NCBI GenBank assembly: GCA_002813285.1
Contig: PHTZ01000001.1
Span: 1,735,501-1,799,500 of the forward strand
Source: Flavobacteriaceae bacterium MAR_2009_75
GTDB taxonomy: Bacteria > Bacteroidota > Bacteroidia > Flavobacteriales > Flavobacteriaceae
DNA: 64,000 nt
Reading direction: 5' to 3'
Below, in pieces: positions 4,374-62,075 of the stretch. Made by a program: the position numbers and the translations under genes. Each line of letters starts with the position of its first letter. Position 1 is the stretch's first letter. Below the pieces are notes generated by a model. It worked only from the letters and a program-made list of their open reading frames with translations. It did not search any database and was not told the origin of the DNA.

Positions 4374-4384
4374 TCCTCTGAGAA

Positions 4385-16717: not shown

Positions 16718-16733
16718 CTTATTGCAAATTTTT

Positions 16734-25153: not shown

Positions 25154-25169
25154 CAGTATGGTACAGGAT
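25154..25169 (+). promoter_or_regulatory. PUL box 6, upstream of the sulfatase at 25256
   Basis: CAGTAT-GGTA-CAGGAT, an exact consensus match, 86 bp before the sulfatase ATG. Boxes 5 and 6 differ at only two positions and are inverted with respect to each other, 59 bp apart. Confidence 0.75.
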
Positions 25170-25255
25170 GCAAGACTCGGAATGTTTTCTTTATTTTAAG
25201 ATTATTAAGAATAGCCAAAATAAGTGATCGAAGTATGAGTCCATAAAAATCTGAA

Positions 25256-26744: not shown

Positions 26745-27068
26745 ATGAAAAAAGGAATGATCAAACTGAGTGCCCTATACCCAAAAAAAGTAGGCAGCTA
26801 TTTTAATATGGAATACTATTGCAATACCCATACGCCCATGGTGGTAAGGTTATTGGGAGACGCTATGAAACACTCTGCCGTGGAAAAAGGGGTAAGTGCT
26901 TTTGAAAGAGACTCAGAGAGTCCTTTTATGGCCATGGGACACCTATATTTTGACTCCGTGGATGAGATGCACAAGGCATTTGAACCCTATTTAGACGAAA
27001 TTATGGGCGATATACAGAATTACACCAACGTACAACCTTATTTTCAAATAAGTGAAGTTATGATCTAA
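26745..27068 (+). CDS. EthD-domain protein
   Basis: 107 residues with no signal peptide. MIKLSALYPKKVG opens a ferredoxin-like fold, and the NMEYYCNTHTPMV segment matches the conserved His region of EthD proteins (the usual motif is FxxYYxxxHxP). The rest (FMAMGHLYFDSVDEMHKAF) fits the family's dimer interface strand and helix. EthD-like proteins are often dimeric, and their functions are mostly unproven. Some take part in oxidative breakdown of small molecules. Here it is translated after the sulfatase and overlaps the convergent sulfatase gene at 27065 by 4 bp. Its role in the locus is unclear. Confidence 0.8.
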   Translation: MKKGMIKLSALYPKKVGSYFNMEYYCNTHTPMVVRLLGDAMKHSAVEKGVSAFERDSESPFMAMGHLYFDSVDEMHKAFEPYLDEIMGDIQNYTNVQPYFQISEVMI

Positions 27069-28576: not shown

Positions 28577-28609
28577 GTCTATATTTTTAATTGCAATAAA
28601 CGAGATGAG

Positions 28610-31366: not shown

Positions 31367-31376
31367 AGATATGAGA

Positions 31377-34169
31377 TTAGGGTGCATATTTAAAGCTAAA
31401 GGAATACGTTCCTGATCCAATTTCCAAAATAGCTTCTTTTTCATTTGTTGTTACAACTTTAATTGAAGGTACTTTGGCTATTTTTTTATTTCCCTCCCTT
31501 AAATCAGAAATATTCTCAATAGGGATATGGACTTTTGCTTTCGTATTCACTGGAATGTTTACGGTCATTATAACCTTGTTCCCTTGCCATTTCCAAGATG
31601 AAGTTATGGTGCCATTGATGCTCTTGTAACTTCCATTTATAAAATCGACTTCCTTGCTTATGTCAGGTTTTATCCGAATGTTTCGATAGCCGCCATCCTC
31701 CGTACCGATACCTGCGGCATGCAGGAACATCCACTCGGCTACGGAGCCAAAAGCGTAATGGCTGAAAGAATTCATCTTTGCATTTAGATCGGAATTTTCT
31801 CCATCATTTTTGGTGTAGCTATTCCAGCGTTCCCAAATGGAAGTACTGCCATTTTCCACTGAATACCCCCAACTGGGATACTCCGTTTGTTTGAATAGCT
31901 TGTAGGCCAAATCGTGATACCCATATTTGGATAGGGCCAACATCACATGTTTTGTCCCTAGGAACCCACTCGAGAATTTGAAACTATTTTTCTCGATTTT
32001 TTCTGCCAATCTTGCTGCTCCTTTCTCCGCCAAATTTTCCGGGAATAGGTCAAAATACAGGGCAAGGGCATAGGTGGTCTGTGTATCTTCGGTAGTTCTG
32101 CCATCTGGCAAAATGTATTTTTCAGAAAATGCCTTTTTAATATTTTCAAACAGATCGCGGTATTTTTGGGCATCTTGCTTACGACCCAATACTTCTGCAA
32201 TTTCTGCCATTAACTTGGCATCATACCCATAGAAGGATGCACCAATGTACCCTTTACTGGTCTCTTCATCCACCGCAAGCCAATCGCCCCAATTATTTCC
32301 TCCACCAGGTCGTATAAAGTTCGTACTTGCATCAGCTTGAAACTCCATGAACTTTTCCATGCCGTTGTACATAAATTCCAATATACGCTTGTCATTATAG
32401 ACCTTGTACATGTTGTAGGGTATGATGATGCCTGCATCCATCCATGCAGGGGAATACTGATCGGGCCTAGAGTAGGGAAAAGGCGCAAAATTTGGATAGG
32501 CTCCATACCAGCGCTGGGCATCGTCAAGATCAACCAAGAATTTGGTCATAAAACTTGCCACATCAGCATTGTAGGTCGCGGAACGCATATAGGTCTGTGC
32601 GTCGCCCGTCCAACCCAAACGTTCATCACGTTGGGGACAATCCGTAGGAATGTCAAAAAAATTAGCCTCCTGTGTTGTCTTTATGTTCTCATATAGCGTA
32701 TTGTTCATTTCATTGGAGGTCTTGAACGTACTGGCATCCGTTTTAATAGAACTCAAAACTATACCTGTGATAGCGTCCAAGCTGGGCTTTCCAGGATATC
32801 CTGTAACCTCAACATATTGAAAACCATGGTAGGTGAACTTTGGCTGCCAAACCTCGACCCCTTCCCCTTTTAGAATATAGGTGTCGGTAGCTCTGGCCAG
32901 GCGAAGGTTCTCGGTCTGTATATTCCCGTCTTGTTTTAAAATTTCTCCAAAACGCAAACGAACTTCGGTCCCAGCTGGGCCTTCCACTTTTAATTCTGCA
33001 ATACCGGCAAAATTCTTTCCTAAATCAAAAATATAAGTTCCAGGTTCTGGTTCGCTCATTTTAACCGGTCTCAATCGCTCAATATTCTTTATTAAACTAC
33101 TTGGGTGTGCCTCAAGTTTTCCATCTGGATAGGTGTATACCTTTGGGGTTTTCCAACCTTGGTCATCATAACCGGGAGTATCCCAACCCGAATGCTCCAA
33201 TCTGGCATCGTACTTTTCCCCCATCAAAATATCCGCCTCGCGAACGGGCCCTTCATTGGATTTCCATGTTGAATCTGTTGCCAACACTTCTTCAGTACCG
33301 TCTTCGTATTGAATATGCAATTGCCCCATAAAAGAGGGGTTCACCCCGTAAAATTCCCGCACCTTATCCAACCGTACCAATAAGGCATAGCCTATATAAC
33401 CGGCATACCATCCATCAGCGATTACGGCACCAATGGCATTATCCCCTTGCTTTATGGAATGTGTTATATCATAAGTTTGGTAGTACAGGCGTTCGTCATA
33501 ATCCGTCCAGCCGGGTGCAAAGTAATCATCGCCTACTTTCTCGCCATTGAGCCTTAGCTCATAAAGTCCAAGTGCAGTGGAATATACCGTCGCCCTTTTT
33601 ATTTTCTTTGTTATCTGAAAGGACTTTCTGAGATATCTGGCCGGGGGAAGATAAAGGCTATCGTATTTATCCGTAGTGTCATAACCCACATCATGACTGA
33701 TGAACTGTCCATGCCAATCGGAAAAATTAAGAAGGCCCATAGACCAGTGACCAGGTTCGCTCCATTCGGATTCTTGATTGGATTCGTCCCAAATTTTCAC
33801 TTTCCAAAAGTAGTCGGTATTTGAAATAAGTTCATCTCCCGCAAAGACTACTTGGTTCGTTTCATATGAACTTACTTTTCCACTATCCCAAATATTGCCT
33901 TGGTCCTCTTCCAACATTTTCTTTGAAGATGAAACAAGAATTTGATAGGCCAATTGGGATCTATTTCTCCCATTTCCTTCAAGAAGCCAACTGAACCTGG
34001 GGCTTAGTACTGTAATACCCATTGGGTTTTCCAAATATTCTACGCGAAGTTCTTTTGGATTAAGCAAGTCTTCTTGTGGCAAAGTGTTCGCAGTTATGTG
34101 GTTGAACCCAAAGCAAAGTATTGCTATCTTAATGATTAAACATGAAAATGTATTCTGTGTCAATTTCAT
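31377..34169 (-). CDS. alpha-L-rhamnosidase, GH78
   Basis: The ATG at 34167-34169 starts a signal peptide (MKLTQN... to about ITANT). The upstream extension to 34283 is not signal-like and includes the terminator region. 930 residues, secreted. It shows FSWLLEG and WKVKIWDESNQESEWS (Ig-like domain), LGLYELRLNGEKVGDDYFAPGWTDY (jelly roll) and YIFDLGKNFAGIAEL. The catalytic barrel has DCPQRDERLGWTGDAQ (near 508-523), including the general acid, and SIWERWNSY (near 775). It removes terminal alpha-L-rhamnose from oligosaccharides, probably in the periplasm. Its barrel strongly resembles the GH78 at 59003 (same RDERLGW and IWERWNSYT motifs), so the two are likely paralogues. It is separated from susD by a terminator-like hairpin. 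Confidence 0.9.
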   Translation of the reverse strand: MKLTQNTFSCLIIKIAILCFGFNHITANTLPQEDLLNPKELRVEYLENPMGITVLSPRFSWLLEGNGRNRSQLAYQILVSSSKKMLEEDQGNIWDSGKVSSYETNQVVFAGDELISNTDYFWKVKIWDESNQESEWSEPGHWSMGLLNFSDWHGQFISHDVGYDTTDKYDSLYLPPARYLRKSFQITKKIKRATVYSTALGLYELRLNGEKVGDDYFAPGWTDYDERLYYQTYDITHSIKQGDNAIGAVIADGWYAGYIGYALLVRLDKVREFYGVNPSFMGQLHIQYEDGTEEVLATDSTWKSNEGPVREADILMGEKYDARLEHSGWDTPGYDDQGWKTPKVYTYPDGKLEAHPSSLIKNIERLRPVKMSEPEPGTYIFDLGKNFAGIAELKVEGPAGTEVRLRFGEILKQDGNIQTENLRLARATDTYILKGEGVEVWQPKFTYHGFQYVEVTGYPGKPSLDAITGIVLSSIKTDASTFKTSNEMNNTLYENIKTTQEANFFDIPTDCPQRDERLGWTGDAQTYMRSATYNADVASFMTKFLVDLDDAQRWYGAYPNFAPFPYSRPDQYSPAWMDAGIIIPYNMYKVYNDKRILEFMYNGMEKFMEFQADASTNFIRPGGGNNWGDWLAVDEETSKGYIGASFYGYDAKLMAEIAEVLGRKQDAQKYRDLFENIKKAFSEKYILPDGRTTEDTQTTYALALYFDLFPENLAEKGAARLAEKIEKNSFKFSSGFLGTKHVMLALSKYGYHDLAYKLFKQTEYPSWGYSVENGSTSIWERWNSYTKNDGENSDLNAKMNSFSHYAFGSVAEWMFLHAAGIGTEDGGYRNIRIKPDISKEVDFINGSYKSINGTITSSWKWQGNKVIMTVNIPVNTKAKVHIPIENISDLREGNKKIAKVPSIKVVTTNEKEAILEIGSGTYSFSFKYAP

Positions 34170-34250
34170 ACCAACTGATTTAAGGTATATTGACCACCGT
34201 AATTTTATATAGATTACCGCGACAATATGAATTAGTGTAATTTGATTGCA

Positions 34251-34281
34251 AAAAATGGGCGAAGTGCTTTTGACTTCGCCC
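34251..34281 (-). terminator. terminator/attenuator between susD and GH78
   Basis: GGGCGAAGT (34257-34265) pairs perfectly with ACTTCGCCC (34273-34281). On the minus strand the stem is followed by a T-rich run (complement of 34251-34256). It lies 22 bp after the SusD stop, so it may end or reduce transcription before the GH78 genes. Confidence 0.75.
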
Positions 34282-34303
34282 ACTACATACTAAACAAACA
34301 ATA

Positions 34304-35803
34304 TTAATATCCTGGATTTTGCACTAAATTCTCATTTGCGTCCAACTGTGATTGTGGAATGGGCAACAATTCTAATTTTGGGTCGTAGACCGTTCCAAAA
34401 AACTGGCCATCCTCGTTATTCTGAAGCGATTGTTCAATATCACCCCATCTCTGTAAATCTGGATACTCAGTAAACTCACCTGCCAATTCCCATTTTCTTT
34501 CTTGTTTTATGATTTCCCTCAACTCTAATTGACTTGTTGTAATAACATCATCCAAACCTGCTCGGTTCCTTATTTGGTTTATAAAGGGCAAAGCCTCAGA
34601 TGAACTTCCACTTTCGTTCAGAGCTTCTGCAAGCATTAATAAAATATCACCATAGCGCATGAATATAAAATCATTACCATGCTGAAACGGATTAGTATAT
34701 GCACCACTTGTATCCAATAATTTACCAAATCCAATGCCTTTTGGATCATTATAACCCCCAAAACGAGCATTATCCGGATTATTTGGGTCGTTATATACAA
34801 TCGTGTTACCATTAGTGTTAACGTATGAATACAATAGCGTAACGTCTCTCCTCAAATCGTTATCCGGAAAAGAATTATAAAAAGATTCTGTAAAACCAAA
34901 TTGATATTGTCCACCATTGAATGCAAAAGGGGACAAAGGAACTCCTGCGAAAAAGTTTAATACGCTACCGGCACCACTTTGCGCAATATTTGGCCGTGCG
35001 AAAATGATTTCAGAATTAAATTCGTTATCTACTGAAAAAATATCTGCAAAATTCATCTGCAATGAATACGGTCCATCATTTACAATTTCTTGAAATTTTG
35101 AGACCGCCATTGCATGCATTGCATTTTGCTCTAAGGGTTTGCCTGCCATATTAAGGTAGACTTTACCTAAATAGGCCTTAGCTGCCCATGAAGTAGCTCG
35201 ACCAAGGTTCGGATTGTCCCAACTTTCAGGAAGTCTGCTTTCTGCATATTCTAAATCATCTATAATGACATTATATACTTCTTCGATTGAGCTTCTAGAC
35301 TTTTTTACAGTTTCATCTGAAAAATCTTTAGTCGCTTCAAGTTGTAGTGGTACACCGCCAAACCATTTGACCAGATTGAAATAGTACCAAGCCCTTAAAA
35401 ATCTAGCTTCTGCTATTTTTTCCTCTTCAACACTTGGTTCCAATCCTACGCTAGACACCTCCGAAATCACGGTGTTGGCCCTATTGATGCCCCTGTAAAA
35501 ATGGCTCCACCAAACACCATGTGCTGTTGTCGGTTGAAAATCCAATGCGGAAAGTTGACCTTGGTTTCCATCGCCCTTGAGACGGACCACAACACTCTCA
35601 CCCGCACCCGAAGTAGCCAAAAAATACCAAAGTTCGTCTATGCCTTCGTTCATTGTACTATATACACCAAAAAGTGCTGCATCTACATCATTTTCGTTTT
35701 GGTAAAGGTTTTCTACCGATAAAAACGAAAAAGGCACTTCTTCAAGCGGTTCACATCCAAAAAGGAATAAGGTCGTCGCTATGGATATTATAATTTTTTT
35801 CAT
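34304..35803 (-). CDS. SusD/RagB-like surface glycan-binding lipoprotein
   Basis: 499 residues with a short signal and lipobox (LFLFGC). It has the SusD fold: NENDVDAALFGVYSTM at the start, KIAEARFLRAWYYFNLVKWFGGVPL for the conserved helix pair, and RYGDILLMLAEALNESG...INQIRNRAGLDD...QERKWELAGEFTEYPDLQRW at the C-terminus, ending LVQNPGY. It binds oligosaccharide at the cell surface together with the SusC encoded 20 bp upstream. Its C-terminus is closely similar to the decayed SusD remnant at 39186-39876, which supports an old tandem duplication of this pair. It differs from the SusD at 14880 in length and sequence. Confidence 0.95.
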   Translation of the reverse strand: MKKIIISIATTLFLFGCEPLEEVPFSFLSVENLYQNENDVDAALFGVYSTMNEGIDELWYFLATSGAGESVVVRLKGDGNQGQLSALDFQPTTAHGVWWSHFYRGINRANTVISEVSSVGLEPSVEEEKIAEARFLRAWYYFNLVKWFGGVPLQLEATKDFSDETVKKSRSSIEEVYNVIIDDLEYAESRLPESWDNPNLGRATSWAAKAYLGKVYLNMAGKPLEQNAMHAMAVSKFQEIVNDGPYSLQMNFADIFSVDNEFNSEIIFARPNIAQSGAGSVLNFFAGVPLSPFAFNGGQYQFGFTESFYNSFPDNDLRRDVTLLYSYVNTNGNTIVYNDPNNPDNARFGGYNDPKGIGFGKLLDTSGAYTNPFQHGNDFIFMRYGDILLMLAEALNESGSSSEALPFINQIRNRAGLDDVITTSQLELREIIKQERKWELAGEFTEYPDLQRWGDIEQSLQNNEDGQFFGTVYDPKLELLPIPQSQLDANENLVQNPGY

Positions 35804-35823
35804 AATTATATCTTTATTAAATT

Positions 35824-38800
35824 TTAAAATGATAGATTAATACCAAAAGTGAATGTTTTAGGTCTTGGATAGGCCGCCAGATCCACTCCCGGTGCTAAAC
35901 CACCATTGCTGGCTCTTAAGGTATCAGCATCCAAAGAATTCACCTCTGGATCAAATCCGCTATAGTCTGTTATGGTGACCAGATTTGTACCTGTCGCAAA
36001 GACTTGAAGACCGTTTATTCCTATATTATCAGGCAAGGGAACATTATATCTCAATGATATGTTCCTCAACCTAATGTAGCTTCCATCTTCAACCATATAG
36101 TTTGCGACTGCTGGAATAGTTGAATTTATTGATGGGAACCTAATGTCATTGGTTGGGTTTTCTGGTGTCCACCGGTTTTCGTACCACTCAACAGATTGAT
36201 TTCTGTAAGATTCGTTGCCGAATAAACCAGAACTTAATGTCGTTCGTATCGGATTGTATAAATCATTGCCGATAGATCCTTGAACAAAAACGTTCAAGGT
36301 CAAATTTTTATAAGTAAAATCGTTGTTCCATCCAAATAAGAAATCTGGATTTGGATTCCCAATAACTTTTCTGTCTTCATTGGTAATAACCCCATCACCA
36401 TCAACATCTTCAAATTTCCAATGCCCCAGTTGGGTGTCGTTTCTAAAAACAGCAAAGGTAGGATTCCCATCACCGTCAAAGTCACTTTCCTGAATCAGGC
36501 CAATGGCATTCAAACCAAAGAACCGGCCGAATTGTTCTCCCGGTCTGTAAATGTGTCCGCTGCCATAGACATTTACACCCATACCAGGACCAAAAATTTC
36601 TTCGGCGCCGCCCAACTCCAATATTTCAGTATTATACGAAGTGTAATTAAGAGAGCTGTTCCATTGAAAATTATTAGAGTTCACCAACAATGCATCGAGA
36701 TTTAGTTCAATACCCTTGTTCTCTATACTCCCAAAATTGACCAATGCACCTCCAAAACCTGACTGTGAGGGAATTTGAATGCTCTGTAGCAGGTCTTTGG
36801 TAGTTTTTACGAAATAATCAGCGGTGAAATTGATTCGGTTTCTAAATAGACCCAAATCAAGTCCAACGTTAGTTTGTTCCGTGGTTTCCCATTTTAGGTT
36901 CGGGTTGGCAACGCTTTGTGGTATGTACGCTAAACCGGCGGAGTTTCCAATAGAATAAACCGATGTGCCATATCTCGAAAGTGACTGATAGGGGGCTATG
37001 GCCTGACTACCGGTTTCCCCCCAAGAAGCACGTAATTTTAAATTGGAAAGGGTTGCATTATCCTTCAAAAATTCTTCTTCTGATATCCTCCATCCCACAG
37101 CTGCCGAGGGAAAATAGCCCCACTTTTCATTTTCTGCAAAACGCGAGGAACCATCAGCGCGCATAGTTGCCGTAAGCAGATATTTATTTTTAAAGGAATA
37201 ATTAAACCTTGCAAAACCGGATTGCAGAGTACTTTGAGAACGATTGGAGCCTACAACTGGTATTCCGGTGGCAACTCCAAAGTTATCAAACCCCAATAAT
37301 TGTATATCAAAATCATTTACATTTAAAGAGGTGCCATAGTTGTTGAACTCACTGTACTCCGCCCCTAAGGTTGCAGAGAATTCATGGTCTTCCCCAAATT
37401 GGTCGGTGTAGGTCAAATAGTTGCTTACAATATAGTCGTATGCCCTACTATTTCCTGAGGAACCGACGGCATTTGACAATAAACCACCTGCTACAGTTGA
37501 TGGCGTAAAAATATCTCTAGTTCTTAGCCTAAAGTTTAGGCCTCCATTAAATGTATAGGACAAGTTGTCTGTTATTTTCAGGGTACCCTCAACATTCCCC
37601 AGTATGTTTGTCAAAAAATCCCTATCATCCTGTTCGGTAACTTCTAAATAGGGGTTAACAAATTGTATGCCTTCACCAGTAAAACCAGAAAAATCTAAAG
37701 TGGGCACTATCGGTTCAGCAAAAAGCGCATTAAAAATAGGTCCTGCCCCATAAGGAAATGCTCTGCTATCAGTAACTGACCTAAAGTTCTGGGTTTGGGT
37801 ACCGTTCAAACTGAATTTTAAGTTTAGCTTATCGTCCCAAGCATCTAAATCTAGATTTGCCCTTACGCTTCCCCTCTTGAATTGTGAATTTATAATAACA
37901 CCTTCATCATTTAACATATTTCCCGAAATAAAAAAACGTGCATTTTCTCCGCCCCCTGAAATATTTAACCCATATTCTTGGCGTATTCCAGTTCTTACTA
38001 TTTCTTCAACCCAATCGAATCCTTGTCCCTCATATTGCTCAGGATTGGAAAAAGGCAATGGGTTTCCAAGAGCAGCGTTTGCCTCATTTCTATACTCTGC
38101 ATAATCCCGTCCTTTCAAAACTTCATAGGGAGTTTCTACAGTTGAAAAACTTACGTTCGAATACAAATCAAAAGAAGTTTCCCCAGTTTTACCTCTCTTT
38201 GTTGTAATCAATATAACTCCGTTTGCTCCCCTGGATCCATAAATGGCTGTTGCAGAAGCATCTTTCAATACTTCTAGGTTTTCTATCTCCTGTGGATTGA
38301 AATTTGGTGACCCACTGATCGGAATACCGTCAATGACGTATAAGGGGGAATTGTCTCCAGATATGGAGTTGTTTCCCCTAATTCTAATACTGGCTGGTGC
38401 TCCCGGTTCTCCAGAGGCAGATGTCACCAATACTCCGCTACTTCTTCCCTGAAGTACTTGGTCGACACTGTTAAAAACGGCTTTTTCCAATTCTTCACTA
38501 CCAACCGAAGCAACTGCTCCGGTTATATCGGATTTCTTTTGGCTACCGTAACCTATTACCACGACTTCATCAAGGTTTTGAGCATCTTCTTGCAGTATTA
38601 CATCGATTAATTTTTTTGCGCCAACTACTTCCTCTTTGGCGCTAAAACCAACATAGGAAAAAACTAAAACATTAGCCCCACTAATCAATTGAATTTGATA
38701 ATTTCCGTCAAAATCAGATTGTACACCGTTGGTTGTCCCTTTTTGAACTACAGTTGCCCCAGGCAATGGTTCTCCGTCAGCACCGGTGATTGTTCCAGTC

Positions 38801-38895
38801 ACTGTTTTTCCAGTTTGTGAGAAAGTTAAAAAACAGGTCAGCATAAAAATGGGGACAAGCCATTTTTTAAATTTTTGTTTGAAAATGGTTCTCAT
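35824..38895 (-). CDS. SusC-like TonB-dependent outer-membrane transporter
   Basis: 1,023 residues. The signal peptide ends near FLTFSQ. The carboxypeptidase-regulatory-like domain (VTGTITGADGEPLPGA; DFDGNYQIQL), the TonB-box-type segment NLDEVVVIGYGSQKKS (near 106-121) and the plug motif GSRGANGVILITTKRG (near 217-233) are followed by the barrel, which ends in a FTFGINLSF strand. Pairs with the SusD downstream (20-bp gap). The promoter region carries PUL box 7, 69 bp before the start. The first 120 residues align closely with the remnant at 39877-40242, evidence for duplication and loss of a neighbouring copy. Confidence 0.95.
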   Translation of the reverse strand: MRTIFKQKFKKWLVPIFMLTCFLTFSQTGKTVTGTITGADGEPLPGATVVQKGTTNGVQSDFDGNYQIQLISGANVLVFSYVGFSAKEEVVGAKKLIDVILQEDAQNLDEVVVIGYGSQKKSDITGAVASVGSEELEKAVFNSVDQVLQGRSSGVLVTSASGEPGAPASIRIRGNNSISGDNSPLYVIDGIPISGSPNFNPQEIENLEVLKDASATAIYGSRGANGVILITTKRGKTGETSFDLYSNVSFSTVETPYEVLKGRDYAEYRNEANAALGNPLPFSNPEQYEGQGFDWVEEIVRTGIRQEYGLNISGGGENARFFISGNMLNDEGVIINSQFKRGSVRANLDLDAWDDKLNLKFSLNGTQTQNFRSVTDSRAFPYGAGPIFNALFAEPIVPTLDFSGFTGEGIQFVNPYLEVTEQDDRDFLTNILGNVEGTLKITDNLSYTFNGGLNFRLRTRDIFTPSTVAGGLLSNAVGSSGNSRAYDYIVSNYLTYTDQFGEDHEFSATLGAEYSEFNNYGTSLNVNDFDIQLLGFDNFGVATGIPVVGSNRSQSTLQSGFARFNYSFKNKYLLTATMRADGSSRFAENEKWGYFPSAAVGWRISEEEFLKDNATLSNLKLRASWGETGSQAIAPYQSLSRYGTSVYSIGNSAGLAYIPQSVANPNLKWETTEQTNVGLDLGLFRNRINFTADYFVKTTKDLLQSIQIPSQSGFGGALVNFGSIENKGIELNLDALLVNSNNFQWNSSLNYTSYNTEILELGGAEEIFGPGMGVNVYGSGHIYRPGEQFGRFFGLNAIGLIQESDFDGDGNPTFAVFRNDTQLGHWKFEDVDGDGVITNEDRKVIGNPNPDFLFGWNNDFTYKNLTLNVFVQGSIGNDLYNPIRTTLSSGLFGNESYRNQSVEWYENRWTPENPTNDIRFPSINSTIPAVANYMVEDGSYIRLRNISLRYNVPLPDNIGINGLQVFATGTNLVTITDYSGFDPEVNSLDADTLRASNGGLAPGVDLAAYPRPKTFTFGINLSF

Positions 38896-38964
38896 AAATT
38901 TCTTTTGTTAGTTATTACTTCTTTAAATTCTGTTTCAATATTAAAAGATTCATTAACAAAGAGT

Positions 38965-38980
38965 ATCCTGTACTATGCTG
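38965..38980 (-). promoter_or_regulatory. PUL box 7, upstream of the second susC
   Basis: Read on the minus strand: CAGCAT-AGTA-CAGGAT, followed directly by ACTCTTTG, which could overlap a Bacteroidota -7 element (TAnnTTTG, here with one extra base). 69 bp to the start codon. Confidence 0.75.
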
Positions 38981-41022: not shown

Positions 41023-44000
41023 CTAGTTTTTAAGTAATTTATAAACCTTTACCTCATTGCGGTTATTTGGATTTATTATACGAAGTAGATAAATTCCCGG
41101 CACTAATGAACTAACATCGATTTTACTTTCATTTATTTTTAATTGCTTTCTCATTTGAAATACACCTGAAAGATCAAGAACTTCAACAACCATATCTGAA
41201 GAGGTACCAGAAATAGACAGAATATTGCTAACAGGGTTAGGGTAAATAGCCATTTGATTATCACCCTGGATATCTTCACTATCTTCACTGAAAACGCTAG
41301 TATTAATTTTAAGGCTATTAGAACATGCATTTTCAATAAAATTTGCACCTCGAACAAAATCAATCCAAGTATGAAAAGAACCCGATGGGTCTGTCGGAAG
41401 GTCGATTCTTAATTTGGTTATGGTCTGATTCTGCCATTCTGGATTACTAGCAAGATTAAACGTAAAATCCTGATAGTTTCCCGTTACAATACTTGAAGTA
41501 ACAGATTTGTTTGCTGAAAAATTAGGACTGCTTGACGTTGCCCAGAATAATTGAAATGTTCCATTCGTCACCTGAGACTTTCCCCTTATCACAATAGAAG
41601 ATAGTTCATTAGCATTAAAGTTTAATCCATCTTTTATGATGTTGGGGTCGTTAAAGTTATCTACTCTTAAAAGATATTCTTCTTGTTGAGTGATTACTTG
41701 GGCACTAATATGATTAGCAGGCAAGAAACCCTGATTTGAACTGATAAAGTCATAGCTGAAGTCCCCAGCATCATTATCTGACATACAAACATTGGACTCT
41801 TCTGTTTGTGTAAGCCCATCTCCATCGTTATCGGCTGTAGGATTCGTAACCACAGTGGTTACCAACCTATCTATGTTAAAGAGATAACCACTTCCTCCAA
41901 CAAACACCAACTTTAGAGTTTGGGAGCCAGCATCTAAACTAATTTGGGTACTGTATGCCTGATAATTGTGCCAAGCACCATTGACTGGAACAGTTACAGA
42001 TCCTTTTAAGACGTTATCGGAATAGATTTCAACTGTCCCACCCGACCCGGCACTTGAGGCCAACATATCTAAATCATAGGTTCCAGCAGCTGCATTCACA
42101 AGGTATTCTGTATAATCCCCGTTCAGGATGAAGCCTAGATTTTGATTACCTCCGCCTCCAGGTGTATTTTCGGTGTTTACACTACCAGATTTAGTGGCAA
42201 AAGCTTCAGCTTCAATATTTCCCGGCAAATTTATAGCCGTTGTTGAAGTTCCCGGAGTAAAATCGTTGACTGTACAGGGCAGAACAGGGGGTTGATAGCT
42301 TCCATTATTATCCCATTTTAAGAAAAACTCTCTTCTACCAGCATCACCAATATCTCTAAGTTTCATGTATACATCACCATTTGGCTCTATATAATACGCA
42401 AGGTCCGTTGCAGATTCTACAGCTGCTTGTGAAGTTACCTTAGGAAAAGTAAAACCTGCACCATCTATTCTGAAATTTGTAAACTTTCCAAAATTTTTAA
42501 GCTTTACAAGTGCTAAATCCCCATCATCACCATAATCCCAAATCATATGAATGTTGCTACTTGGGGTATTACTGAAATGAAATGTATAGGTAAAACCTTC
42601 ATTAACAATAAGTGGAAACTTATATGTTCCAGCATCTTGTTCTTTTCCCTTATCAATAAAACATGCATCTGCTGTTCCCGGCTTCGTACGAGATACCGAA
42701 ATATCGGTATCATCGTTTATTTGCCGAATCCATAGCCCAGAAAAAGAATAGTCAGAACGAGCAGCTTTGTACCATGAGGGGTGTCTATATTCATGACCAT
42801 CGGTCAAGAAAGGGATATCTCTGACGATAGTGCTAGGTTTTCCAGTAAGAGATCCATCTAAGTCCTTAAAAAAATGGCCTATTTTTCTAGCACGGTCTTT
42901 TGCAGGGTTTTCATCATTATATCTAAATGAAAAAGGTTCGGTAAAACCTTTGGTAATGCCTTGGTAAGTAGGGTTAAAGTTCTCTGTAGCCCCTCCATTT
43001 CCTTCTGGTGAAATCATTAAGGCATTAGCCTGGTTCCAGGTTTCAAAATGACAATTGATGTGCCTACCTGGGCCATCATAAAACCTGTAAAATGAACGGG
43101 TACCCGTAAATACCCCGAAGCCAGAATCAGCATTAAACAAACAGTTTTCCAATGTGATGTCCGAGGCTAACATGGTTACAATGATATTGTCCGTAAAAAT
43201 ACAATCTTGAAATACAACATATTTTTCAGCTGATATGGCTCCACCCCCAATACCTGTATAAATGGCTTGATGATTACCATAAAATATCCCATTCCTGAAA
43301 TATTGATTGGTATTGACGTTCCATCCTTTATTTCTAATAATAGAGTGGTCCGTAGTTAATCCATCAAATATATCCCAACCATTCTTACAATTATGAGCCA
43401 CAAATCCATCAAAACTACCTAATGGCTCTGTCCAAGGGCTTTGCCCATTATATTGTGGCAAGATAGCACTTAATCCTATCGGGCCTTCTGGGAGAGCAAA
43501 CCAAAACCCCGTTCCATCTGTACCAGCAGCTACATTATTCTCAAAATAGTTATTAGGGTTAGTGATCCAATAGGAGGCCGGTGTTTGGTTTTGAGCTTGC
43601 CTCAATTCATTGTCTGAAGGTGTAACCTCCTCTCCTGGGAGTGGTCTTCTAGTAGATAATACCACATTGTTTTTGATGGTGTTATAGCGCTCTGTACCAT
43701 CTTCAAAGAAAATTCCATGTCCTATATGATCATAAGCGAATACGCCATCCACTGTGACGTATTCAGTTCCATGAATAGTTACGGCCCTGTTGAACGACTT
43801 ATGCACACTGCTGTTTTTCAGATAACTACCCTGCGCATCATCCTCATTGAGGTGCCAGTGAAAAGGATATCTAGCCACTTCTCCCTTTTGACCCATTTTA
43901 TACAATTCAACATTTTCCACATGTGCCGTCGACCCTTTCATCATCATGATATGACCACCAAATCCATCGGCTTCATTTGTGCCACTCATATCTCCTTGGA

Positions 44001-44907
44001 TTTTTATATAATGTGACAACAGTCCTACTTCACCCTGTATTTTAACATTCCAAGTTTTTCCGTCTTCGACTCTTGTGTAGGCTATAGAGTCACCAATATG
44101 TTTGTAATTAAGATTTTGCTCCAGTGTTAGTGTTCTATTATCTACACTGATTTGTGTGATTTTTGCTTCATCCACACGCTCCCAACCACTATTATTTACA
44201 TTAACCAATTCTGTAGCAGTCAATGTTATTTCATCACCAATTTCCCAATCTACCGGCTCAACCAATGTAATTTGATTTGTACCGGCATTTGCAGTAGCTC
44301 CCAAATTAGTCCAGCTCATTTTTTCCTTTCCATGCAGTTCCAAGGCACCACCATTTTTTACCATAATTCCTTTATAGCTTGGAGCTGGGCTCTGCACTTT
44401 ACTTCCAAGTAATGTAATTTGGCATCTTACCAATTCAGGGCCACCCTCGTTTGCATAATAGGGTTGGGCTTCCGTACCAATTTCCATCAATCCACCATTT
44501 TCAACGGTTATACCCTGAGTTTTCAAGTCAATCCAGGCTCCTCCAGATTGCCAATTAACGGCATTTAATGTCCCATCAATCCTTATTGTTTTTGCACGAC
44601 ATATTCCTACAAGCGTTACTGTTCTGCCAGCGGGAATAATCACATCATCATTTTGAGAAGGCAATTGGTTTCCGGGCCAAATGCCAGGGTCCGACCATAA
44701 CCCATCGGCCACAGGTTGTATAACAGCTAGATTGGCTGGTTGTATATTGTCAATTTTCGATTTAATCCCTGAATGAGAGATTTCTGTGTCATTGGCAATA
44801 ATCTTGTTAACAAACAATGAAGTAAAAACCAATATGTTCACTACCACAAAATTGTAATTCCTAACAAGATTTCTCGGCAAAAAATTCGAAGTAAATTTTT
44901 TTTTCAT
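41023..44907 (-). CDS. type IX-secreted G8-domain / right-handed beta-helix protein with CBM6
   Basis: 1,294 residues. A signal region lies near 20-38, then a G8 domain (about 66-190; DGLWSDPGIWPGNQLP, VIIPAGRTV) and a long right-handed beta-helix (about 290-640) with HWHLNEDDAQGSYLKNSSVH and successive N/D-rich turns. Domains of unknown type follow, then a CBM6-like module (about 893-1030; NIEAEAFATKSG, GDYTEYLVNAAAGTYDL, LFNIDRL), a DNDGDGLTQTEE calcium-type linker and a further sandwich. The C-terminus is a type IX sorting domain (AIYPNPVSN near 1218; GIYLLRI; KVYKLLKN). G8 plus beta-helix also occurs in the animal hyaluronan-degrading proteins CEMIP/TMEM2. It is the only protein here with a type IX tail, so it is probably on or outside the cell. 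A polymer-cleaving role is inferred. Confidence 0.85.
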   Translation of the reverse strand: MKKKFTSNFLPRNLVRNYNFVVVNILVFTSLFVNKIIANDTEISHSGIKSKIDNIQPANLAVIQPVADGLWSDPGIWPGNQLPSQNDDVIIPAGRTVTLVGICRAKTIRIDGTLNAVNWQSGGAWIDLKTQGITVENGGLMEIGTEAQPYYANEGGPELVRCQITLLGSKVQSPAPSYKGIMVKNGGALELHGKEKMSWTNLGATANAGTNQITLVEPVDWEIGDEITLTATELVNVNNSGWERVDEAKITQISVDNRTLTLEQNLNYKHIGDSIAYTRVEDGKTWNVKIQGEVGLLSHYIKIQGDMSGTNEADGFGGHIMMMKGSTAHVENVELYKMGQKGEVARYPFHWHLNEDDAQGSYLKNSSVHKSFNRAVTIHGTEYVTVDGVFAYDHIGHGIFFEDGTERYNTIKNNVVLSTRRPLPGEEVTPSDNELRQAQNQTPASYWITNPNNYFENNVAAGTDGTGFWFALPEGPIGLSAILPQYNGQSPWTEPLGSFDGFVAHNCKNGWDIFDGLTTDHSIIRNKGWNVNTNQYFRNGIFYGNHQAIYTGIGGGAISAEKYVVFQDCIFTDNIIVTMLASDITLENCLFNADSGFGVFTGTRSFYRFYDGPGRHINCHFETWNQANALMISPEGNGGATENFNPTYQGITKGFTEPFSFRYNDENPAKDRARKIGHFFKDLDGSLTGKPSTIVRDIPFLTDGHEYRHPSWYKAARSDYSFSGLWIRQINDDTDISVSRTKPGTADACFIDKGKEQDAGTYKFPLIVNEGFTYTFHFSNTPSSNIHMIWDYGDDGDLALVKLKNFGKFTNFRIDGAGFTFPKVTSQAAVESATDLAYYIEPNGDVYMKLRDIGDAGRREFFLKWDNNGSYQPPVLPCTVNDFTPGTSTTAINLPGNIEAEAFATKSGSVNTENTPGGGGNQNLGFILNGDYTEYLVNAAAGTYDLDMLASSAGSGGTVEIYSDNVLKGSVTVPVNGAWHNYQAYSTQISLDAGSQTLKLVFVGGSGYLFNIDRLVTTVVTNPTADNDGDGLTQTEESNVCMSDNDAGDFSYDFISSNQGFLPANHISAQVITQQEEYLLRVDNFNDPNIIKDGLNFNANELSSIVIRGKSQVTNGTFQLFWATSSSPNFSANKSVTSSIVTGNYQDFTFNLASNPEWQNQTITKLRIDLPTDPSGSFHTWIDFVRGANFIENACSNSLKINTSVFSEDSEDIQGDNQMAIYPNPVSNILSISGTSSDMVVEVLDLSGVFQMRKQLKINESKIDVSSLVPGIYLLRIINPNNRNEVKVYKLLKN

Positions 44908-44979
44908 GTTCGTAAGAATAAAAAGTTTGTATTATTTTTTTTGTCAACTTTAAAGCTAGGAACTTGTAAGAAAAAGATT

Positions 44980-44995
44980 ATCCTGTACCGTGCTG
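44980..44995 (-). promoter_or_regulatory. PUL box 8, upstream of the G8 gene
   Basis: Read on the minus strand: CAGCAC-GGTA-CAGGAT followed by AATCTTTTT, 72 bp before the start codon. The layout is the same as box 7. Confidence 0.7.
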
Positions 44996-45047: not shown

Positions 45048-45851
45048 CTAATTTTCACCCATAAGGTCTTTGACCAAATCTACCCTTACCTTTGGAAATG
45101 TTCTTGGAAGCTTTCCTTTTGAAACAGCACTTTTAAGCCCTATTCCCTTTGGGATAAATTCTTTGTCCGTTGTTAGTATAAACTTATCCATTTCAAAACC
45201 ATCCTCGCGCATGCTGAACGTCAGCTCATGGACCCCTGGGTTTTTAACATCTAAGTATATCGCCATGGGGATTCCACAATGAACCTCTTTGGTACGTTGC
45301 TTACTACTCCATTTCCATGAATTTTTGCCCTCGCACCATTGCATTCTCTGACCAGTTTCTGGCCATTCGCCATCCAAACCAACATGAATACCATTGTCTT
45401 CAGAACCTGTACTGTAGGCCCTTACCCAAACGTAGTACCGACCAATATTTTCGAAATTCACCTTGTAATGGAGTATCGCCATCTTGCCCGCAACATTAGA
45501 AAAATTTTCTTGGTCTATCAACTTATCTCCATGTGTGGCCCTAGTGTCAGGGAGCAATTCCAGGTATGCACTACCACTGGCTCCCATGCAATGTGGAGCA
45601 TCATCATCCCTTCCAAAGTTGGGCCATACTCCCTTACTGAAAATTACCCATTGCCGTTTCTCATGGAAAGTCTGTTTGTAGAAATGCTCTGCTTCAATAG
45701 CTACTATTCCATTTTTTTCTGCAAAGATGACCTTGTCACTAGTAATCGCGTTGGTTTGTGATGATACATAATTGCTACCTATAGTTAAAGTAAACATGAA
45801 GTGCACTAATTTTACGTATTTCATAGTGTTAATGTTGTATTTCATTTTCAA
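45048..45851 (-). CDS. secreted carbohydrate-binding protein (GH115 C-terminal-domain-like)
   Basis: 267 residues. The start at 45851 or at the in-frame ATG at 45824 (MKYVKLVHF) are both possible; the second gives the cleaner signal peptide, ending near VSSQ. The mature part is one beta-sandwich: GIVAIEAEHFYKQ at the start, LHYKVNFENIGRYYVWVRAYS in the middle and HELTFSMREDGFEMDKFIL at the end. This pattern is seen in the C-terminal domain of GH115 and in related carbohydrate-binding modules, here without any catalytic domain. It is encoded 19 bp after the acetolactate decarboxylase-like gene and 140 bp before the G8 gene. It may bind the polymer or released fragments in the periplasm. Confidence 0.7.
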   Translation of the reverse strand: MKMKYNINTMKYVKLVHFMFTLTIGSNYVSSQTNAITSDKVIFAEKNGIVAIEAEHFYKQTFHEKRQWVIFSKGVWPNFGRDDDAPHCMGASGSAYLELLPDTRATHGDKLIDQENFSNVAGKMAILHYKVNFENIGRYYVWVRAYSTGSEDNGIHVGLDGEWPETGQRMQWCEGKNSWKWSSKQRTKEVHCGIPMAIYLDVKNPGVHELTFSMREDGFEMDKFILTTDKEFIPKGIGLKSAVSKGKLPRTFPKVRVDLVKDLMGEN

Positions 45852-47124: not shown

Positions 47125-48612
47125 TTATTCCTTTATGATCGGGTCACTTGTTTTTTTCTGCCATTTCAGTAGTTCTGATTGCATTTCTTTTAGTACTTCC
47201 TTGTATTCGTCGTTTTCAGCCAGATTATTTACGGCCCAAGGATCATTTTTCAAATTATAGAGCTCTTCCTCTGGAAGCTTTCCCTCAACAATTTGTGCAA
47301 GTAGTTCAAAAGCCAAAGGCTGGTTATTTTTTGTGCGAATGGTCTCTGAAAAAACTTGGTTATCATATACTTTGTGGTCCGGCATCCAGAGATCAATGTT
47401 CATCGGCGGATTGGTCCACGGGTCTCCTTCGAAACCCTTTGTTTTGGGCTGCGAAAAATTACGGATATAATACCATGCTCCATCCGATACGGCCCTGCCT
47501 TTATAATAACTATTTGTTTCGGTCATTACCGTTTTACGATCTGCAAATTCAGTATTTTCACCTCTAAGTAAGGGCCAAAGGGAACGGCCATGCTGTATCA
47601 CTGGAGAGTCCACTTCCAAAAATTCAAGAATGGTTGACATTAAATCTATGTGACTTACTGGAGAGCTTATTTTTACTCCTTTTTTTACTCTCGGACCTTT
47701 CATAATTAATGGCACTTGTGTACCAGCAGGATAACAAGCCACCTTCCCTCGCTGATAGGCCATTCCATGGTCTGGTGTAAAAATGACCAACGTATTTTCC
47801 ATAAGACCGGACTCTTCCAAATCTTTCAATAAAACGCCGGCCCAACTATCCACCAATTGCACCGTAGCAAAATAACGGGCAAGGTCTTTCCGAGCTACTT
47901 CCGTATCTGGCAAGAAAGGGTGTATGGGTATTTCCTTCCAATCTACTGAAGTAGGTGGCGCAAGCCGACTTTCTGGGTCGGAACTAATATTATTGTCTAC
48001 CAACTTCTTTTGCCAAGGGGCATGGGTAAGATCGGTATTGGCCATGAGAAAAAATGGTTTTCCATCTGCTTTTGTTTTGATGGTATCGATGAGTCCATTC
48101 CATGTTTCTGCTCTATGGGTCTTATTTTCACTGATTTCGCCCCAACCGAAATCATAGCGGAATTTATCCATGGGTTGTACATGCGTTTTGGAGGTAACAG
48201 CCGTAAAATAACCTTCCCTTCTTAGAATTTCAACCAGTGTTGGAATGTCATCCTTGATTGCAGTCAGCCCGTAATCATTTGGGTCTTCCCCGGTTGCTAT
48301 TGGAAGCTTATTGACCGAATAGTTATGTACATTACTTGTCATTCCATTATCATGGGGCATTCTACCGGTAAGAAGAGCTCCTTTTGAAGGTGAACAAACG
48401 GGTTGGGCGCAAAAATTAGAAGTGAACTGAACCCCAGTTTCAGCCAAAGCATCCAAAACAGGGGTTTTAATTCCTGGAGTACCGAGCGACTCCAGGTGGT
48501 TCCCCATATCTTCAGGAAATAGAATAATAACATTTTTTTGGGAAAAAGTTGGAAAAGGAAAAAACAGTAACAGTAAAAAAAGAGATTTACATTTGTATGA
48601 TATATTTTTCAT
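47125..48612 (-). CDS. sulfatase, S1 family, with CSPSK instead of CxPSR
   Basis: 495 residues with a signal peptide ending near PTFSQ. The fold is clearly S1 sulfatase (GVQFTSNFCAQPVCSPS, LLTGRMPHDNGM, VIFTPDHGM). Several canonical positions differ. The modification motif starting at Cys73 reads CSPSK (Lys for Arg), the usual Asp-Asp metal pair reads FPEDMG (Glu-Asp), and the region that normally reads E-x-G-x-R-V-P reads PAGTQVP. Lys could still support formylglycine formation or stability, but this combination suggests a divergent subfamily, perhaps N-sulfohydrolase-like or with altered activity. It is a single-gene unit with its own terminator, downstream of the GH3 remnant. Confidence 0.8.
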   Translation of the reverse strand: MKNISYKCKSLFLLLLFFPFPTFSQKNVIILFPEDMGNHLESLGTPGIKTPVLDALAETGVQFTSNFCAQPVCSPSKGALLTGRMPHDNGMTSNVHNYSVNKLPIATGEDPNDYGLTAIKDDIPTLVEILRREGYFTAVTSKTHVQPMDKFRYDFGWGEISENKTHRAETWNGLIDTIKTKADGKPFFLMANTDLTHAPWQKKLVDNNISSDPESRLAPPTSVDWKEIPIHPFLPDTEVARKDLARYFATVQLVDSWAGVLLKDLEESGLMENTLVIFTPDHGMAYQRGKVACYPAGTQVPLIMKGPRVKKGVKISSPVSHIDLMSTILEFLEVDSPVIQHGRSLWPLLRGENTEFADRKTVMTETNSYYKGRAVSDGAWYYIRNFSQPKTKGFEGDPWTNPPMNIDLWMPDHKVYDNQVFSETIRTKNNQPLAFELLAQIVEGKLPEEELYNLKNDPWAVNNLAENDEYKEVLKEMQSELLKWQKKTSDPIIKE

Positions 48613-49526: not shown

Positions 49527-51740
49527 TCAATCCTTCGTGGCTATATCTATATCTTTTTTTACCTGCTCTGTGGTTTTTTCCCAATCGACATAGCCCACTC
49601 GGGTAGTCCATATCGGATTAATGTTTTGGCTCATTGCGGTATTTACATATGATTTCCAAGCACTTAAAGCCTTTTCTAGCTGTACCTCAGCTTCCTCTTG
49701 ATAAGTTTTGTTCTTTGTCTCTCTATAGAGGGCAACATTGGTAGCACCAGCTATTTTATAACCATAATACTTGCCCAGCAGAGCCATTGTTTTTATATCG
49801 ACAAGCGTATGGCAAAGCTCTAAGTCATTATCTTGACAACTAAGTTGCCCAATCAATCCAAGGGCTTTATCAGCATGGCCATGCAGTTTTTGAGAAACCT
49901 GAAATGGGGTCGTTAAATCAGTAGGTTCATCCTTAATAATGGTTTGCACAAAATCTGGTATGCTGATATTTCCAGAGTATTTATGTACAGGATATGCAAT
50001 AAAAGTGTTTACATCATGAAACCCGGTTTCATTTAGAGATGTTTTTTGTGCCCGACTTCTGCAACCTTCTATATACCATTTAAAATCCACATCGCCCCAA
50101 TGAAACCCCGTTGTAACAGGGTAAACCAGGGAAGCCTCTTGCCATGCACTAAAAAGCGTATCGGCATTCACTTTAGGAAATTCATCCTGAATCAAAGCCG
50201 TAAAGTATTGATTTTTAATATCAGGATTGTATGACAAGCGGCCCCAAAGTAACCAATGATACCAATGTTTTTCAACCTCGAGCTGTCGAGGTTCTTTGGC
50301 ATCCCTAGTTGTGAACTCCTTGCCCCAAATCCATCCATCGGATCCATAGTACATCCCTTGACTTACATGTTCAGGAATGTTCATTATAAAACTTCTCACA
50401 AAATCAGGTGATCCCCATCGGAAGTAGTAATTACTATCATTCCTTAGAGTCCAAATGGTTTTCAAATCTCCGATGTTCTCAACAAACCCTTCATGATAAG
50501 GTTGCCTAACCGCACTCATTACGTGTGCCTTGGCGTACTTGAAACTGTATATGAAGTCAATGTTTTGTTTCTCTATCAACGCTTCAAATTTCTTTTCAAT
50601 CATCCTTGTATCCGCTTGATGCTGTCGATGGATAAACTTGAACGAACGTTCTGGCATTTCATCAGCCACCTCCAATAGACCTTCACCATATGTTTCATAA
50701 ATCCAAGTTTCCCGATCATTTAAGGGAATGTTTGGCATATTTTCACCTGCAGTAATTCCTATGCCACCAAGGTCAGGGTATGTTTGGAACATTGCCTTTA
50801 TACTTTGCTTAAAGTAATCCTTGGTTATTTCGTTTCTATAATCGTTTGATATTCCATACTTCCCATCGGTACCATTGACGAAGATATTCCAAGTAACTAC
50901 ATAAAAGGTAATGTTACGGTTCTTTGCATAAGTCATCACATTCTGCCAGAATTCAATCTTTTTCTCAATGGAAATTTTCTTGACTATTTCATAATTTTCG
51001 ACAATTTCCGGGTCATCGAAATCTACTCCAACAAGGTGGTAGTTTTCTTTCCAGTCAGTTGTTGATCGGTGTATATCATCCAAGGCAACTTCTTCATACT
51101 TTGGCACCTTAACCATAGAAGGAAATGGGTGTAAGCTCCATAAAGAAATGAAATTGTACCGATTTCTTGCCATGTGGTCGATGTATTTCTTCCAGAAATT
51201 AAAATCCCACATCACATCAATATTATTTTGTGCGGCATCACCGGCGTCAGAATAACTAGGAGTTCGAACATCCAAGGGAATATTAAATTTTGTTCCCCTC
51301 ATCTCCATGTATGGATTCTGATTTGTACCAACAATACCATCCAATCCGAATAATTTGATTTTTTCGGTCAGCTCAAGAGTCCCATACATTAGTCCAGGCT
51401 CATCGGCTCCTATCACCCAAACCCTTCCATCATTGTCCAAAGTAATAACGAATCCTTCTGAAACTAACTTGAAGTCGAACTCAGGATATTCAATGTCTCG
51501 GAAGTTATCCCCAGCCAAGTCTGGTTCTGTTATAAATATGAAATCTGCTTTTGAATGTTCGGCTTGTCTAATATTGTAATTTCTTAGATGAAGTACTTCT
51601 TTCAAATCGTTCATGGCAAACTTGATCATCGGTGAATTCCTTGTACTGAATATGGATACCGTTTGATTGGCTAAAAGGCCGATCGATACCATGAAGAAAA
51701 ATGCAGTTGAAACTGACTTTAAGACTTTACTATTGACCAT
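49527..51740 (-). CDS. alpha-glucuronidase-like secreted glycoside hydrolase
   Basis: 737 residues with a signal peptide (to about GLLANQT). An N-terminal alpha/beta domain of the GH20b/GH67-N type (ADEPGLMYGTLELTEKI near 108-124) precedes a TIM barrel: MEMRGTKFNIPLDVRTPSY, MARNRYNFISLWSLHPFP, ITFYVVTWNIF and LGGIGITAGENMPN, where the Glu is a likely catalytic residue. A helical C-terminal region follows (GHADKALGLIG onwards). The set-up resembles GH67/GH115 alpha-glucuronidases and related unclassified proteins, but I cannot place it in a known family. Glucuronic acid is the usual partner sugar of rhamnose in ulvan, so removal of uronic acid is a plausible role. It starts 4 bp after the DUF1593 gene, so the two are translationally linked. 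Confidence 0.65.
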   Translation of the reverse strand: MVNSKVLKSVSTAFFFMVSIGLLANQTVSIFSTRNSPMIKFAMNDLKEVLHLRNYNIRQAEHSKADFIFITEPDLAGDNFRDIEYPEFDFKLVSEGFVITLDNDGRVWVIGADEPGLMYGTLELTEKIKLFGLDGIVGTNQNPYMEMRGTKFNIPLDVRTPSYSDAGDAAQNNIDVMWDFNFWKKYIDHMARNRYNFISLWSLHPFPSMVKVPKYEEVALDDIHRSTTDWKENYHLVGVDFDDPEIVENYEIVKKISIEKKIEFWQNVMTYAKNRNITFYVVTWNIFVNGTDGKYGISNDYRNEITKDYFKQSIKAMFQTYPDLGGIGITAGENMPNIPLNDRETWIYETYGEGLLEVADEMPERSFKFIHRQHQADTRMIEKKFEALIEKQNIDFIYSFKYAKAHVMSAVRQPYHEGFVENIGDLKTIWTLRNDSNYYFRWGSPDFVRSFIMNIPEHVSQGMYYGSDGWIWGKEFTTRDAKEPRQLEVEKHWYHWLLWGRLSYNPDIKNQYFTALIQDEFPKVNADTLFSAWQEASLVYPVTTGFHWGDVDFKWYIEGCRSRAQKTSLNETGFHDVNTFIAYPVHKYSGNISIPDFVQTIIKDEPTDLTTPFQVSQKLHGHADKALGLIGQLSCQDNDLELCHTLVDIKTMALLGKYYGYKIAGATNVALYRETKNKTYQEEAEVQLEKALSAWKSYVNTAMSQNINPIWTTRVGYVDWEKTTEQVKKDIDIATKD

Positions 51741-62059: not shown

Positions 62060-62075
62060 CAGTATTGTACAGGAT
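62060..62075 (+). promoter_or_regulatory. PUL box 10, upstream of the sulfatase at 62154
   Basis: CAGTAT-TGTA-CAGGAT, an exact consensus match, 79 bp before the preferred start codon. Confidence 0.75.

Follow-up and report, generated by a model that had tools for sequence, protein, structure and literature searches.

A G8/CEMIP-type beta-helix protein as a candidate surface enzyme for a sulfated, rhamnose-rich polymer in Flavobacteriaceae bacterium MAR_2009_75

We analysed a 64,000-nucleotide stretch of the genome of Flavobacteriaceae bacterium MAR_2009_75 (contig PHTZ01000001.1, positions 1,735,501 to 1,799,500; hereafter the window), focusing on the gene at 41023-44907, whose product combines a G8 domain with a CEMIP-type beta-helix and is called here the G8 protein. 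The best overall explanation, to which we give a probability of about one half, is that this protein is a surface enzyme, optional in its locus and co-regulated with it, that opens a sulfated, rhamnose-rich polymer. Its parts differ in strength: we hold with high confidence that the gene belongs to a sulfated-rhamnose locus and to the regulon of that locus, and consider it rather probable that the protein is an enzyme acting on a sulfated rhamnose polymer. The catalysis, its site, its substrate and its chemistry (hydrolysis or elimination) are all putative.

In the proposed scheme, the G8 gene would be switched on together with the locus for a sulfated, rhamnose-rich and probably uronate-containing polysaccharide, and type IX secretion would take the protein to the cell surface. 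There, the CBM6 domain and the groove of the beta-helix would bind the polymer, and a conserved face (R346/Y347/H350/H352/R374/H379/H397/E402) would cleave or otherwise open it, probably at an internal position or on a side branch. The pieces would then pass to SusC/D, sulfatases and rhamnosidases.

Domain architecture, fold and relatives

All four Pfam domains of the G8 protein score above their cut-offs (Table 1), among them G8 (PF10162) and CEMIP_beta-hel (PF24606). Each of these two has a single match in the 4.76-Mb host genome, and CEMIP_beta-hel is rare across the phylum (5/395 genomes, the host counted). The C-terminal sorting tail is confirmed by NCBIfam TIGR04183 and, as a preliminary description of this DNA had claimed, it is the only Por_Secre_tail match in the window, type A tails being those searched for. 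The whole genome holds 13 such matches at E 0.001, 11 of them above the cut-off, which suggests, from sorting domains, that it encodes a type IX secretion system (T9SS). Judged by eye, the N-terminus looks like a signal peptide; export to the cell surface is thus predicted.

Homology to human TMEM2 is evident in sequence and fold alike. A phmmer search of the PDB with the window protein retrieved TMEM2 (8c6i) at E 5e-37, and a profile of 53 bacterial sequences retrieved TMEM2 alone at E <=0.01 (E 2.2e-157). The AlphaFold model of residues 56-890 (predicted local distance difference test, pLDDT, 88.8; predicted template modelling score 0.91) is a right-handed beta-helix. With this model, 8c6i ranked first both in Foldseek (E 9.6e-39, the runner-up at 7.6e-12) and in VIA-align 2 (Z 34.5, root-mean-square deviation 2.9 Å over 749 residues), far above AlgG (Z 21.1), GH28 and other beta-helix folds (Z ~17-21); among the animal proteins, the comparison covered TMEM2. 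The alignment places model residues 11-822 on TMEM2 chain residues 118-1167 and runs past the beta-helix into the following beta-sandwich, which we read, from the ranges, as domain X in the available part of Niu 2023 (PMC10206443). Altogether, membership in the CEMIP/TMEM2 fold family is near certain, and both the architecture and the right-handed beta-helix of the preliminary description are borne out.

Relatives are widespread. Among the best 80 of 97 confirmed stretches kept from a genome-contig scan (77 loci, to which a viral scan added five), they occur in Bacteroidota, Myxococcota, Verrucomicrobiota, Planctomycetota, Pseudomonadota, Acidobacteriota, Deinococcota, Chloroflexota and others, and in one archaeal metagenome-assembled genome (MAG). 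Plasmid matches were found in 10 records, seven of them annotated 'G8 domain-containing protein'. The eight other G8 proteins scanned with Pfam all combine G8 and CEMIP_beta-hel, and none has CBM6. A quick tree places the window protein as sister (support 100) to its nearest relative, L127 (66-69% identical), and in a group with other members of its family and an Algibacter MAG (85), beside myxobacterial proteins (91). Distant CEMIP-like beta-helix proteins (L090-L093, 24-26% identity) lie on contigs catalogued as viral. The MAG that yielded L035 and L039 is labelled Bordetella parapertussis, perhaps wrongly: in the tree, its G8 proteins cluster closely with G8 proteins from Bryobacterales (Acidobacteriota) MAGs.

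A conserved polar face in the beta-helix

Conservation was counted over 835 positions in 72 sequences, the window protein included. Eleven of the 82 fetched homolog loci were excluded (cut, fragmentary or near-copies); the poorly aligning L045 and L089 were retained, as were the viral-contig rows L090, L092 and L093. At 28 of the 835 positions a residue present in the window protein is identical in at least 69/72 sequences; five of these are His, three Asn, two Arg and two Glu. The set R346, Y347, H350, H352, R374, H379 and E402 is fully intact in 68/72 sequences and identical in TMEM2, which likewise shares H319, H397, D403, E406, N409 and N414. From H319 to E406, the TMEM2 counterparts are H519, R546, Y547, H550, H552, R580, H585, H603, E608, D609 and E612 (chain number + 82, anchored on Cys554 of Niu 2023). 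The 8c6i entry includes a Ni2+ ion. In the window's family, 13 additional members were compared: all seven residues are present in 12, and one has K for R346.

H350/H352, H379 and E402 lie on or beside strands of successive coils (294-300, 321-326 and 344-346 in model numbers). From the alternation of hydrophobic and polar residues in this strand pattern, these residues are predicted to form an outward-facing ladder. The preliminary description had held that its proposal would fall if the protein were inactive on every sulfated rhamnose polymer and its predicted surface had no conserved acidic or basic cluster; a His/Arg/Glu cluster is conserved, and its exposure is predicted. We somewhat favour this ladder as the candidate active site of the family.

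One feature of TMEM2 is missing. Between the positions matching window residues 208 and 220, TMEM2 has ~176 residues and the window protein 11; the length there is 11-27 residues in 72/72 sequences, so that the lectin-like insert is absent throughout. According to the available part of Niu 2023 (PMC10206443), this stretch of TMEM2 comprises a small beta-sandwich and lectin-like domain 1, and the loss-of-activity changes R265C, D273N and D286N fall within the lectin domain.

The surrounding locus, its regulon and its distribution

The window locus joins SusC/SusD pairs to degradative enzymes and is thus a polysaccharide utilisation locus (PUL; Table 1). SusC/D, sulfatases, rhamnosidases and rhamnose-linked operator sites all point to a sulfated rhamnose polymer as its likely target, in agreement with the preliminary description. 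The statement that the window holds no known lyase also stands: none was found among 35 of its 42 open reading frames (ORFs) of at least 120 aa, the other seven being small overlapping ORFs. BNR_4, which we take to be an ulvan-lyase-type family, has 0 matches in the host genome; other ulvan lyase families were not searched for.

Upstream regions of window genes have in common a 17-bp motif, CAGYAYNGTACAGGATA. The pattern was written from upstream sequences including those of the G8 gene and SusC, so that the exact matches at these two genes are by construction; the evidence for the motif lies in its enrichment and in its sites elsewhere. At <=3 mismatches the window holds 13 sites against 0.84 expected (shuffle maximum 6), three of which overlap at one palindrome (11650-11676). 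At <=2 mismatches the genome holds 20, against 4 for the reversed pattern, and eight of the 20 lie in the window, that is in 1.3% of the genome. Seven sites outside the window were inspected, five of the 20 being left out. One (L097) precedes a cluster of an aldolase-II/SDR (short-chain dehydrogenase/reductase) fusion, a TIM-barrel gene (match below cut-off) and an FGGY kinase gene, in that order, from which a GntR regulator diverges; we take this cluster to serve rhamnose catabolism. Others lie between GH106 and GH31 genes (L096), before a sulfatase-GH78 fusion (L099:13259), before a SusC (L098) and, in the continuation of the window locus, between GH106 and GH78 genes (L100). The best reading is that the motif marks a rhamnose-linked regulon. 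The PUL box which the preliminary description had placed upstream of the G8 gene survives in part: an enriched operator-like motif does lie there, but the TTTG-type promoter pattern (TTTG-N17-21-TANNTTTG) is not enriched (2 seen against 3.6 expected). The sites that overlap upstream of the first SusC contain the perfect palindrome GTATCCTGCAGGATAC.

The same association recurs in other genomes. CEMIP_beta-hel has a match in 18/397 genomes of the window's family, 12 of which are strong (E <1e-40), and DUF5722, present in a window protein whose gene lies 20 kb from the G8 gene, occurs in 10/397 (assumed to be the same set of genomes). A strong G8 gene and DUF5722 occur together in four genomes against 0.30 expected, with a hypergeometric P of 9e-5 that is a guide only, because the genomes are related. 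In G541 and G717, the G8 gene is 4.7 and 3.6 kb from a DUF5722 gene (65-66% identical to the window's) and stands between a GH106 gene and a sulfatase 63% identical to that at 62124-63761 in the window, one small ORF intervening in G541. The 60 kb read around them also contain counterparts of the window's GntR gene (55-56% identical, within ~13 kb of the G8 gene), SusC/D (66-70%) and GH78 (58-59%). G396 carries a tandem pair of G8 genes on the same contig as DUF5722 and ~40 kb away from it; GH78, GH43, GH3 and sulfatases are found in the interval or alongside. The G8 gene is placed in this type of locus in four genera, and the other G8 proteins of such loci (n=4) all have a T9SS tail and all lack CBM6. 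GH105 (PF07470), a possible sign of a lyase, occurs at a distance of 15-20 kb from the G8 gene in two genomes, G541 and G717, but not in the window, on the G396 contig or in the stretches read from six genomes without a strong G8 gene; as 2/4 stands against 0/6 and these two are close relatives, we draw no conclusion from it.

Table 1. Features of the window and the basis of their assignment (window coordinates)
Feature	Position	Strand	Basis
G8/CEMIP-type beta-helix protein, 1294 aa, ATG start	41023..44907	-	ORF list, Pfam, model
G8 domain, residues 77-202	44302..44679	-	Pfam-A, E 1.6e-20, 73.6 bits vs cut-off 22.9
CEMIP_beta-hel, residues 315-508	43384..43965	-	Pfam-A, E 5e-66, 222.9 bits vs cut-off 27.3
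Candidate active-site stretch, residues 346-402 (R346 Y347 H350 H352 R374 H379 H397 E402)	43702..43872	-	alignment
CBM6 (CBM_6), residues 899-1014	41866..42213	-	Pfam-A, E 3.7e-21
T9SS type A sorting tail (Por_Secre_tail), residues 1221-1285	41053..41247	-	Pfam-A, E 1.2e-10
Operator-like site CAGCACGGTACAGGATA, 71 bp before G8 ATG	44979..44995	-	pattern search, exact
Operator-like site, exact, 68 bp before SusC (35824-38895)	38964..38980	-	pattern search
Operator-like site, 1 mismatch, precedes sulfatase at 25256	25154..25170	+	pattern search
Operator-like site, 1 mismatch, precedes sulfatase at 62124	62060..62076	+	pattern search
RhaT-like transporter, amidohydrolase, SDR, FAD oxidase genes	2475..6643	+	domain scan
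GntR-type regulator with periplasmic-binding-like domain, candidate operator reader	6803..7840	+	domain scan
SusC/SusD pair 1	11786..16631	+	domain scan
DUF5722 protein, rival candidate for backbone cutting	16722..20594	+	domain scan, genome comparison
Sulfatase, two GH78 rhamnosidases, SusD, SusC	27065..38895	-	domain scan
Gene directly upstream of G8 gene, GH115 C-terminal-domain-like	45048..45851	-	domain scan
Sulfatase	47125..48612	-	domain scan
Weak match, GH67 N-terminus / alpha-galacturonidase, below cut-offs	49527..51740	-	Pfam-A, NCBIfam
GH78 alpha-L-rhamnosidase	59003..61843	-	domain scan
Sulfatase, operator-like site upstream, reference in genome comparison	62124..63761		

Some further features of the locus are recorded here. 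Two short ORFs may be gene remnants: 20554-21201 matches only positions 1-73 of 301 of a sulfatase profile, and 22364-22759 only 1-75 of 187 of a 3-keto-disaccharide hydrolase profile. A GFO/IDH/MocA oxidoreductase, ApbE and two 3-keto-disaccharide hydrolase genes are grouped at 54443-58665, which suggests a 3-keto-glycoside route beside the hydrolases. Just past the window (L100:48-3341, genome 1799548-1802841), GH106 is broken into a pair of neighbouring ORFs, covering profile positions 8-590 and 595-742; G541 and G717 each encode their counterpart in a single ORF. The ORF at L100:5201-8095, which lies between GH78 and a sulfatase of the window locus, encodes a product of 964 aa for which neither Pfam nor the PDB gave a match.

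Proposed role, alternatives and known systems

Several observations weigh against the proposed role. Six of the 10 DUF5722 genomes have no strong G8 gene, and eight of the 12 strong-G8 genomes have no DUF5722. For the G8 proteins of such loci, identity is 36-41% in the core of 835 residues and 41-51% in residues 61-515, in most cases below that of neighbouring genes of the same loci (55-73%); in the quick tree these proteins do not make up one clade (4 changes). Loci of relatives were compared too, 82 in all (77 from the scan and five stretches of whole genomes; L008/L072 and L009/L082 repeat genomes): tblastn with 29 other window genes (E 1e-10) matched seven loci, through three sulfatases and four SDR genes, and found no SusC/D or rhamnosidase like the window's; the wider G8 family is thus not tied to such loci. 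Two of the operator sites inspected have no evident rhamnose gene close by (L099:6417, and L095, with a GH13 gene on one side and a run of genes up to a SusC on the other), and nothing convincing was found for the motif in 15 loci of other genomes at <=4 mismatches. We know of no activity data for any prokaryotic G8/CEMIP member. As for the animal protein, Niu 2023 (PMC10206443) reports that no TMEM2 activity was seen and that an active site could not be located.

The preliminary description saw in the G8 protein the enzyme that makes the first cut, and its being obligatory for the locus now appears unlikely. In favour are its sorting tail, unique in the window, and the lack of a known lyase or BNR_4 noted above. 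However, the surroundings of DUF5722, read over 40-80 kb in each of the six genomes without a strong G8 gene, all contain a sulfatase at 61-79% identity and rhamnose catabolism or transport genes like the host's. Four of them (G750, G764, G771 and G103) also have close rhamnosidases, G750 being the clearest case (GH78b 70%, GH78c 76%, RhaT 75%, sulfatase 62%, SusC 43%); G764 has a weak G8-type match only, 390 kb away. Since these genomes keep a locus of the same type, the G8 gene is optional in it. The remaining two, G594 and G753, are not clearly the same locus, which speaks for the obligatory role: no rhamnosidase was found near DUF5722 at the threshold used in the stretches read. Because DUF5722 was the criterion by which the ten genomes were selected, they are no evidence for its constancy.

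The DUF5722 protein is a candidate for the main backbone cut. Nine relatives are 75-91% identical to the window's domain and have invariant HNEVDAGW-like and LSENGTN motifs, which resemble the catalytic motifs of clan GH-A and count against an obligatory cut by the G8 protein. One genome, G103, carries four copies (2852340-2903229). The single-sequence structure model was unusable (pLDDT 33.5), the profile gave a single chance match in the PDB (E 1.4), no relatives were found among viral sequences, and DUF5722 is not mentioned in the open-licence PMC literature.

Could the G8 protein hold the polymer as a non-catalytic surface binder or adhesin? CBM6 and the T9SS tail would suit such a role, as would the failure of Niu 2023 to detect TMEM2 activity and the fact that most relatives compared have no window-like degradative genes alongside. 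We nonetheless regard it as unlikely, because binding of different sugars hardly explains five His, two Arg and two Glu that are near-invariant within residues 319-406 and common to TMEM2; moreover, CBM6 is absent from the eight other members scanned. A C5-epimerase-like modification of uronate residues, leaving the chain uncut, is improbable: AlgG and AlgE-type mannuronan epimerases are the best folds after TMEM2 (Z 20-21), but a common beta-helix fold says nothing on function and the sequence profile finds no epimerase. Least credible of all is that the protein targets another glycan, such as animal hyaluronan, and stands in the locus by chance. The closest solved relative, TMEM2, is called a hyaluronidase and no rhamnose locus is seen at L127, though the contig breaks off immediately after the gene; against this stand the operator-like site common with the locus and the repeated placement in this locus type.

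The reading of the G8 protein as an optional, co-regulated surface enzyme touches on a dispute over whether, and where, TMEM2 and CEMIP (KIAA1199) themselves cut hyaluronan. Sato 2023 is reportedly among the works named in this dispute. Contrary to Niu 2023, the available part of Narita 2023 (PMC10474455) describes TMEM2 activity as intrinsic, and that of a 2026 review (PMC13113925) calls the catalytic mechanism of CEMIP incompletely defined. The parts available of PMC12254123, PMC11669647, PMC11742310 and PMC12313589 give no CEMIP/TMEM2 active site and no G8 protein in such a locus. In the open-licence PMC literature, 'G8 domain-containing' was not found together with Bacteroidetes, 'G8 domain' is absent among the matches listed for G8 with ulvan, rhamnan or PUL, and none of the matches listed for TMEM2 with histidine residues and active site mentions both TMEM2 and 'histidine residues'.

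Prokaryotic relatives that lack the lectin insert, some of them in a locus that points to a likely substrate, offer a simple system for finding the active site, and the conserved residues are a short list to test in the human proteins. If the proposal is true, one more surface enzyme takes part in the breakdown of sulfated rhamnose polymers. A broader and more tentative idea, about which we are rather doubtful, is that the H350/H352-R374-H379-E402 face (TMEM2 H550, H552, R580, H585, E608) is the active site of an ancient glycan-cleaving family of bacteria and animals, in which the animal lectin insert would serve hyaluronan recognition while surface-located members encoded in these loci would cleave a polymer of sulfated rhamnose and uronate and so establish a new family of carbohydrate-active enzymes. 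A new carbohydrate-active family, as suggested earlier, is possible, its bacterial members being already annotated as G8 domain-containing proteins.

With AlgG/AlgE4 epimerases, GH28 and tailspike enzymes, the window protein has a right-handed beta-helix in common (Z ~17-21) and no sequence match. Its resemblance to AlgG/AlgE epimerases, PL6 and GH28 is one of fold. Loci for the utilisation of ulvan or rhamnan sulfate contain SusC/D, several sulfatases and GH78 and GH106 rhamnosidases. The window locus has all of these; it differs by having no recognised lyase, in a genome without BNR_4, and by the presence of DUF5722 and G8 proteins. Compared with other prokaryotic G8 proteins, the window protein has the same two Pfam domains as the eight scanned and the same seven residues that are intact in 68/72 sequences. 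It differs in its locus, which has SusC/D and rhamnosidases, where 0/82 loci of relatives had ones like them, and with which it shares an operator-like site. Finally, it resembles TMEM2 (CEMIP2; 8c6i) in G8, the CEMIP beta-helix, the following beta-sandwich and the conserved polar residues checked from H319 to E406, but it has no lectin-like insert and carries a CBM6 domain and a T9SS tail.

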